Shown: one piece after another, positions 2,329 through 4,166 of the stretch
Layout of the letters: each line of letters starts with the position of its first letter
Position numbering within the stretch: the first letter of the stretch is position 1
Source of the DNA: Brevundimonas subvibrioides ATCC 15264
Lineage (GTDB): Bacteria > Pseudomonadota > Alphaproteobacteria > Caulobacterales > Caulobacteraceae
Assembly: GCF_000144605.1 (NCBI RefSeq)
Contig: NC_014375.1
Coordinates: forward strand, 744,001-808,000
Direction of reading: 5' to 3'
DNA: 64,000 bases
Notes under the pieces: model-generated
The model's database searches: none
What the model saw: the letters and a program-made list of their open reading frames with translations, nothing else
What the model was told of the DNA's origin: nothing
Program-made: the position numbers and the translations under genes

Positions 2329-3204
2329 GTGACCGCTGAACCGACCCCCGAACCCGATGTCTCGAGACCGTCCGGCGACGTCTTCGATATCGCATGGCCG
2401 AAGGAAGCGGCCGGCCGTCTGATCTTTGCCTCGCCCCATTCCGGCGGACACAGCCCCGACGACATGCGGCCGGCAGCGGGCCTTTCACCGCTGACGTTGC
2501 GCAGCGCCGAAGACGTGGCCGTGGATCGCCTGATCGCCGTGGGGGCCGATCACGGCGTCCCGGTTCTGACCGCCCGGATCTCGCGCGCCTATCTGGACCT
2601 CAACCGGTCTCCGTCCGAGCTCGACCCGGTCCTGATCGAGGACGTGCCCGCGGCCGAGCCGACCGGGAAGGTCGCAGCCGGTTTCGGGGTGGTGCCGCGT
2701 CGCGCCGGCGACGGCACGTCGCTCTACGACCGTCGCCTGTCTCTGGACGAGGCCGGGCGCCGGATCGCGCGGGTGCACGTGCCGTACCACGCCGCCCTGG
2801 CCGGGCTGCTGACGGAGGCGCGGGATCGCCACGGCACAGCCCTGCTGGTCGACTGGCATTCGATGCCATCGCGCGCCGCAGGCGTGCCGACGCGTGGGCA
2901 GCGGTCCGTGGACATCATTCTCGGGGATCGGCACGGCGCGGCCTGCCGGTCGGCGACGTCGCGAAGGGCGCGGGCCCTGTTCGAGGCCCAGGGCTGGCGG
3001 GTCGGGCTGAACGCGCCCTATGCCGGGGGCTACGCCACCCAGCACTGGGGCCGGCCGGGCGCAGGATTCGAGGCGCTCCAGGTCGAGATCAACCGGGCCC
3101 TCTATCTGGATGAACGCACGCTGGAGCCATCCGCGGACTATGAGGGATTCAAGGCCGCGCTGGCGGCCGTGATCGCTGGCCTGGCGGGCGATCTGGGTCG
3201 CTGA
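2329..3204 (+). CDS. N-formylglutamate amidohydrolase family protein
   Basis: A 291-aa protein of the FGase family, zinc hydrolases that release formate from N-formyl-L-glutamate at the end of one histidine-degradation route. Conserved segments are FASPHSGG near the N-terminus, YLDLNRSPSELD, LLVDWHSMPS, DIILGDRHG and the C-terminal NAPYAGGYATQHWG with EALQVEINRALYLDE. The start is a GTG. No other hut gene is nearby, so its physiological substrate may differ from N-formylglutamate. It diverges from cpdR, with 125 bp between the two starts. The family is certain; the exact substrate is not. Confidence 0.9.
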   Translation: MTAEPTPEPDVSRPSGDVFDIAWPKEAAGRLIFASPHSGGHSPDDMRPAAGLSPLTLRSAEDVAVDRLIAVGADHGVPVLTARISRAYLDLNRSPSELDPVLIEDVPAAEPTGKVAAGFGVVPRRAGDGTSLYDRRLSLDEAGRRIARVHVPYHAALAGLLTEARDRHGTALLVDWHSMPSRAAGVPTRGQRSVDIILGDRHGAACRSATSRRARALFEAQGWRVGLNAPYAGGYATQHWGRPGAGFEALQVEINRALYLDERTLEPSADYEGFKAALAAVIAGLAGDLGR

Positions 3205-3221: not shown

Positions 3222-3248
3222 AAAAAAAGCCGCGCCCGAAGGCGCGGC
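3222..3248 (-). terminator. intrinsic terminator (minus strand)
   Basis: A perfect 8-bp stem (GCCGCGCC with GGCGCGGC) closes on a TTCG tetraloop and is followed on the minus strand by seven T residues at 3228-3222. It ends the candidate sRNA and would also stop read-through from the DUF599 gene. Confidence 0.85.
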
Positions 3249-3302
3249 ATAAAGTCTATAGGGAGGAAACGCCCAGGAAGGGCAAGACGCCCGGAGGCGT
3301 CG
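3222..3302 (-). ncRNA. candidate small RNA with three hairpins and a CCU-rich loop
   Basis: Minus strand, in a 260-bp gap. A sigma70-like promoter (TTGACG, 17-base spacer, TAACTT) would start an RNA near 3302. The RNA would form a 6-bp hairpin at 3286-3301 (loop TCCG), a 4-bp hairpin at 3271-3283 (loop TTCCT) and an unpaired GTTTCCTCCCT stretch. It ends in an 8-bp stem with a TTCG tetraloop and seven T residues. Exposed CCUCC sequences complementary to ribosome-binding sites are typical of several alphaproteobacterial trans-acting sRNA families. It could instead be the 3' UTR of the DUF599 gene, but the internal promoter argues for independent transcription. Confidence 0.6.
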
Positions 3303-3308
3303 AAGATC

Positions 3309-3337
3309 AAGTTAGGTTGCGATGCACAATGCGTCAA
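3309..3337 (-). promoter_or_regulatory. promoter of the candidate sRNA
   Basis: On the minus strand the -35 element TTGACG (3337-3332) and the -10 element TAACTT (3314-3309) are separated by exactly 17 bases. The predicted start near 3302 places the first hairpin at the 5' end of the transcript. Confidence 0.5.
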
Positions 3338-3464: not shown

Positions 3465-4166
3465 TCAGGCTTCGCGCTCCCGATTGACCTCGATAAGCCG
3501 TCTGGCGGTCCGGATCGCCCGCGCCGCCGGTGAGGCCGACTGACGCCATACCAGCAGGGAAAACGCCGACAGCACGCCGGCCGCCAGCCACAGGGGCCCG
3601 AACAGCCAGGCGGCCGCGGCGAGCGCGAAGTAATAGCCCCTGACACCCTGGCTGAAGGCGGCGAGCGCCGGGTTCAGAACCTGGGCCGTGGCCTCGCCGA
3701 ACGCGATCTTGTCGCCCTCGGAATGCACCTCGGGCGCGGCCCCGATCAGGGCGAGGGCATAGTTCATCTGGCGGATGGACCAGATGAAATCCAGCAGACC
3801 CCGCGCCAGGCACAGCAGCACCAGGCCCAGCTTGGCCTCCAGCAGCTGGACCGGCACGTCCTCGGCCCCAACGGCGGTGAAGCCCTGCAACGCCTGGTCG
3901 CCACCGAACAGGATGCCGCCGACGCCCGCGATCAGCAGAAGGTTGGACGAGGCGAAGAAGGACCCCGAATTGATCGAATGGCCCAGCAGCTGGCTGTCCA
4001 GCAGGCGGATTTCCCGGTGCGTCATCGCCGTCATCCAGGCATGACGAATCGTCAGCATGTCGGTGTTCAGCGAGCCGCTGCGGTGGGCGAGCACGCGCAG
4101 CAGCGGGTCGTATCCCAGCCAGCACAGGAAGAAGAGCGCCAGTCCCAGCCCGTCCATCGCCGTCAT
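3465..4166 (-). CDS. DUF599 family membrane protein
   Basis: A 233-aa integral membrane protein. Hydrophobic stretches lie near residues 5-20 (GLALFFLCWLGYDPLL), 70-88 (FFASSNLLLIAGVGG), 108-128 and 178-205, suggesting four transmembrane helices. The patterns WLGYDPLL, HREIRLLDSQLLGH and SSNLLLIAG identify the DUF599 family, which has no assigned function. The gene diverges from ppa, with 106 bp between the starts. Its 3' side leads into the candidate sRNA and terminator. The family call is good; the role is unknown. Confidence 0.85.
   Translation of the reverse strand: MTAMDGLGLALFFLCWLGYDPLLRVLAHRSGSLNTDMLTIRHAWMTAMTHREIRLLDSQLLGHSINSGSFFASSNLLLIAGVGGILFGGDQALQGFTAVGAEDVPVQLLEAKLGLVLLCLARGLLDFIWSIRQMNYALALIGAAPEVHSEGDKIAFGEATAQVLNPALAAFSQGVRGYYFALAAAAWLFGPLWLAAGVLSAFSLLVWRQSASPAARAIRTARRLIEVNREREA

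Follow-up and report, generated by a model that had tools for sequence, protein, structure and literature searches.

Within the 64,000-nt window analysed here (Brevundimonas subvibrioides ATCC 15264, NC_014375.1, positions 744,001 to 808,000; coordinates below are those of the window), a short interval between two protein-coding genes raises the question of whether its minus strand encodes a small RNA of its own and, if so, to which family this RNA belongs, how it may act and what controls it. The interval is bordered by the convergent gene for an N-formylglutamate amidohydrolase (FGase; 2329..3204, plus strand; PF05013, 229.7 bits) and by the gene for a DUF599 membrane protein (3465..4166, minus strand; PF04654, 173.8 bits), located upstream on the same strand as the RNA. 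An initial annotation, made from the letters alone, had proposed an independent trans-acting RNA resembling known alphaproteobacterial RNAs; this proposal stood, and the family, which had not been recognised, is RF00519/αR8. The αR8/MmgR/SisA gene, of approximately 81 nt, was placed at 3222..3302 (minus strand) on the basis of its RF00519 match, its conserved promoter and terminator, and the numbering of SisA, the Caulobacter member of the family.

The sequence upstream of the RNA reads TTGACG-N17-TAACTT, with the -35 element at 3332..3337 and the -10 element at 3309..3314 (both minus strand), as the initial annotation had described. A generic E. coli-type sigma-70 scan called no promoter at this locus, and the promoter was therefore accepted by the conservation of its columns among 62 relatives, with the TTG of the -35 element kept in 60-62 of the 62 loci and the TA of the -10 element invariant (62/62). 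These relatives were FGase loci fetched by protein similarity and kept if the exact 10-mer of the αR8 family lay directly downstream of FGase; the whole RNA architecture was found in all 62, just downstream of FGase and on the opposite strand. Transcription is predicted to start at 3302, the position expected beforehand, which fits the SisA numbering (G33 before the 10-mer) provided that no indels lie in between, and the predicted 3' end follows the U-run at 3228-3222. From these signals we infer that transcription of the RNA is driven by a dedicated promoter (3337-3309) and stops at a dedicated terminator. The claim that no protein frame is present also held, as no credible frame was found on the RNA strand: the sole overlapping frame of at least 40 aa is one of 41 aa with a TTG start, which is not considered credible because it starts upstream of the predicted +1 and because relatives vary by 1-3 nt indels across this region.

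The stretch 3302-3216 folds at -41.7 kcal/mol (z = -5.6), with none of 200 shuffles as stable, and displays the three hairpins anticipated by the initial annotation: SL1, with 6 bp and a UCCG loop (3286..3301, minus strand); SL2, a weak GCCC-UUCCU-GGGC hairpin (3271..3283, minus strand); and the terminator hairpin (3248-3229), which together with 7 U at 3228-3222 forms an intrinsic terminator with an 8-bp stem and a UUCG loop (3222..3248, minus strand), recovered by the terminator scan. The CCU-rich segments previously noted as unpaired or loop are both present and can be assigned more precisely, TTCCT being the SL2 loop and GTTTCCTCCCT being single-stranded between SL2 and the terminator, in the unpaired segment GUUUCCUCCCU (3270-3260, minus strand). 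In 54 non-redundant relatives, 95% of cells in the three helices together were paired, and 11 pairs displayed two-sided changes, above 500/500 shuffles and every slid control. SL1 showed two-sided changes at 4 of its 6 pairs with 90% of cells paired, and the terminator main stem covaried at 6 of 7 pairs, so that the lack of hairpin conservation named beforehand as grounds for rejection was not observed in either of these helices. SL2, with 97% of cells paired, changed so little that it displayed no covariation, which therefore neither supports nor contradicts this helix.

These data bear on the reading in which the DUF599 transcript simply ends here, the locus supplying its 3' untranslated region and terminator and encoding no separate RNA, as could be suspected from a DUF599 gene located upstream on the same strand. 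We consider this highly improbable, as all 62 loci conserve a promoter made up of -35, operator (see below) and -10, the hairpins covary, and in other species SisA and MmgR are known to be transcribed independently, at a similar length (PMC12559287, PMC7143759).

With an independent RNA as the preferred reading, its family was established by the covariance search that the initial annotation had advised, in which Rfam RF00519 (suhB/MmgR, for Makes More Granules Regulator; αR8) was matched over its full length (model positions 1-77) at 63.9 bits against a gathering cut-off of 41 (E = 7.8e-11). This is the only copy above the cut-off in the genome; weaker matches, at 27 bits and below, were rejected as siblings, the seven that were fetched being without the 10-mer. 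The family matched in 99 of 101 genomes of the genus and in 116 of 119 of the Caulobacteraceae, and inspection of the interval in relatives, likewise advised, revealed it to be syntenic and covarying, with a DUF599 gene upstream in many Caulobacteraceae αR8 loci. In most alphaproteobacteria the main αR8 locus can be recognised by its FGase neighbour, and so can sisA in Caulobacter (PMC12559287). Given the full-length match and the FGase-adjacent position, the Brevundimonas RNA is orthologous to SisA of Caulobacter and MmgR of Sinorhizobium by sequence and synteny; the family and its locus are already known, and this RNA is one more orthologue. With SisA of Caulobacter crescentus it shares the family, the 10-mer, the place downstream of FGase, the hairpin and terminator layout and a transcription start spacing predicted to be identical, whereas Caulobacter harbors four αR8 siblings plus the CrfA sponge (PMC12559287) and the Brevundimonas genome a single copy above the Rfam cut-off. 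Its resemblance to MmgR of Sinorhizobium meliloti extends to the family (RF00519), a length of approximately 80 nt, the single copy and a PhaR-type dyad between the -35 and -10 elements, although the operator flanks differ. To our knowledge, no direct mRNA target of S. meliloti MmgR has been described.

Other Hfq-dependent anti-Shine-Dalgarno RNAs of this class, AbcR1 and AbcR2 (αR15), which regulate amino-acid transporters, are partially homologous to RF00519 and contain a pair of CU-rich anti-Shine-Dalgarno motifs (PMC7143759), and thus could be confused with the RNA studied here. An αR15/AbcR identity is nevertheless hardly credible: the RF00519 match is full length and contains the αR8 10-mer as a single seed, the neighbours are FGase and DUF599 and not lsrB, and there is one copy over the cut-off with no tandem, while AbcR RNAs occur as tandem copies beside lsrB and measure ~114-120 nt (PMC7143759). 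CcnA, a cell-cycle RNA of Caulobacter, was also considered; the CcnA paper makes no mention of MmgR or the SuhB family.

As a member of αR8, the RNA would act through its seed. The CU-rich stretch picked out in the initial annotation is the defining 10-mer of the family, UUUCCUCCCU, a single-stranded anti-Shine-Dalgarno segment that follows SL2 (3260..3269, minus strand), its seed function being assigned from SisA. Its invariance in alignment A1 is no evidence in itself, because possession of the exact 10-mer was the condition for entering A1; loci selected class-wide with the RNA model also keep it, with few exceptions. In SisA, the 10-mer pairs with ribosome-binding sites in an Hfq-dependent manner, and repression was demonstrated by compensatory mutations (PMC12559287), so that the earlier suggestion of pairing with ribosome-binding sites corresponds to a mechanism demonstrated for the orthologue. 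Since the 10-mer is identical and lies in the same structural setting, an anti-Shine-Dalgarno mode of action is expected in Brevundimonas as well, and together with the αR8 identity we hold it to be very probable. By analogy with SisA, UUUCCUCCCU, located between SL2 and the terminator, would be presented by Hfq and pair with G/A-rich ribosome-binding sites, which would repress translation of many mRNAs; that the Brevundimonas RNA is expressed, depends on Hfq and has such targets is likewise inferred.

The exact complement of the seed, AGGGAGGAAA, occurs at only two places in the genome, the RNA's own locus and a site shortly upstream of a small ORF's start codon (MTKYAPLASFLRRQ...; L269:1037-1046, G000:C1:1631036). 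This ORF, preceded by a sequence that could pair with all 10 nt of the seed, is a candidate target. As the complement is confined to these two places, the exact-complement search revealed no CrfA-like sponge with a perfect match to the 10-mer in the genome. The ribosome-binding site of the phasin gene (phaP) pairs moderately with the seed, and because 4 of 46 genes in the window pair as well or better, this duplex is not exceptional as target evidence, and is suggestive at most.

The control of the RNA is where the locus offers most. The initial annotation was correct about the -35/-10 pair and missed the palindrome lying between them, TTGTGCATCGCA (3318..3329, minus strand), a PhaR/AniA-type operator whose core, YGCRNYGCR, occupies 3326-3318. 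In the relatives, this part of the spacer (TTGTGC-RNY-GCA) varies no more than the -35 and -10 elements themselves. In S. meliloti, the PhaR operator is the palindrome YGCRNYGCR, and PhaR (AniA) is a repressor titrated by polyhydroxybutyrate (PHB) granules; in EMSA, PhaR binds CAATTGTGCACCGCAGCATTA within the mmgR promoter, and point mutation or removal of the mmgR palindromes abolishes binding (PMC12542648). A conserved dyad between the mmgR -35 and -10 elements has also been reviewed, with both NtrC and AniA control relying on it (PMC8401924). The Brevundimonas palindrome TTGTGCATCGCA matches the published PhaR consensus and the S. meliloti mmgR site, and is found at the corresponding place of the promoter.

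Among loci selected with the RNA model and without regard to the motif, the operator core was present in 48 of 49 FGase-adjacent Caulobacteraceae loci and in 29 of 39 FGase-adjacent loci at class level, compared with 0-2 occurrences for eight permuted motifs and ~3-4 (maximum 8-9) in shuffled sequences. A search for the operator pattern in 385 genomes gave matches in 29 of them, and none for the reversed pattern. The exact core was absent from 10 of the 39 class-level FGase loci, four of which have a spacing one base longer. At the class-level αR8 loci L197, L212, L214 and L223 a palindrome one base wider, YGCR-NN-YGCR, lies near the expected promoter position, which suggests that some lineages use an operator with altered spacing. 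Of the 49 FGase-adjacent loci in Caulobacteraceae, the one without the operator belongs to a Brevundimonas (L026, G049) that has a phaR gene, with the lowest PF07879 score (90.7 bits) of the 61 genomes searched.

Five Caulobacteraceae αR8 paralogues located away from FGase (L043, L045, L055, L259 and L262) have no PhaR-type site at the promoter position, and instead carry other palindromes (TGTTAGCGCTAACA-like, GACAGCGCTGTCA) resembling LacI/GalR-type operators; these siblings seem to be wired to different regulators.

The regulator and its pathway are encoded in the same genome, which contains phaR (PF07879; present in 117 of 119 genomes of the family), phaC (PF07167, PhaC_N) and a phasin gene (PF09361). 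One of the seven near-perfect operators found genome-wide precedes the main phasin gene, ~130 nt from its start codon, in a promoter (L265:1213-1258, G000:C1) where TGTTGCACTGCACAA and a one-base-wider CGCACTTGCA flank a -35 element TTGACC. Since the phaP1/2 promoters of S. meliloti display a two-site PhaR layout of this kind (PMC12542648), the motif probably functions in this species as a site for PhaR.

Regarding the control step only, the TTGTGC-N3-GCA palindrome could instead serve a regulator other than PhaR, such as an NtrC-dependent nitrogen signal, or mainly the promoter itself, a reading consistent with the reliance of both NtrC and AniA control of mmgR on the dyad (PMC8401924) and with the nearly constitutive expression of SisA in Caulobacter (PMC12559287). 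We regard this as unlikely, given that PhaR binds the mmgR dyad in EMSA and point mutations abolish this binding (PMC12542648), and that the phasin promoter of the same genome bears the motif as well. Furthermore, of 61 genomes (60 class-level carriers of αR8 and the Brevundimonas devoid of the operator), two αR8-bearing ones have no phaR, and both lack the operator, a joint loss that is suggestive and, with n = 2, a weak argument.

Repression by PhaR thus remains the preferred reading, and it is likely, judging from the promoter sequence, that PhaR represses transcription of the αR8 RNA in Brevundimonas. In the proposed circuit, PhaR (AniA) bound to TTGTGCATCGCA between the -35 and -10 elements would repress transcription of the RNA; the formation of polyhydroxybutyrate granules would titrate PhaR, so that the RNA is made; and the RNA would then damp synthesis of phasin and other targets. 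Caulobacter SisA has been reported as nearly constitutive, in a paper that makes no mention of PhaR (PMC12559287), and PhaR control in Caulobacter may therefore be weak or conditional. With somewhat less assurance, we favor PhaR control of FGase-linked αR8 as an ancient class-wide circuit, present in Caulobacteraceae and rhizobia, with some siblings re-wired.

The useful part of this locus is its promoter, where the PhaR dyad of Sinorhizobium mmgR is kept in nearly all FGase-linked Caulobacteraceae copies. As far as the searched literature shows, conservation of this PhaR-type operator in Caulobacteraceae is unreported and would represent a modest extension; the abstract of a 2018 study of the mmgR promoter reportedly describes a TGC[N3]GCA dyad in the promoters of mmgR and of PHB genes of alphaproteobacteria. 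The proposed circuit predicts that the carbon-storage state influences SisA, which has been called nearly constitutive in Caulobacter. If the circuit is true, PHB granules would titrate PhaR and thereby switch on a broad anti-Shine-Dalgarno small RNA class-wide, and carbon storage would be wired to a global anti-Shine-Dalgarno regulator across alphaproteobacteria.
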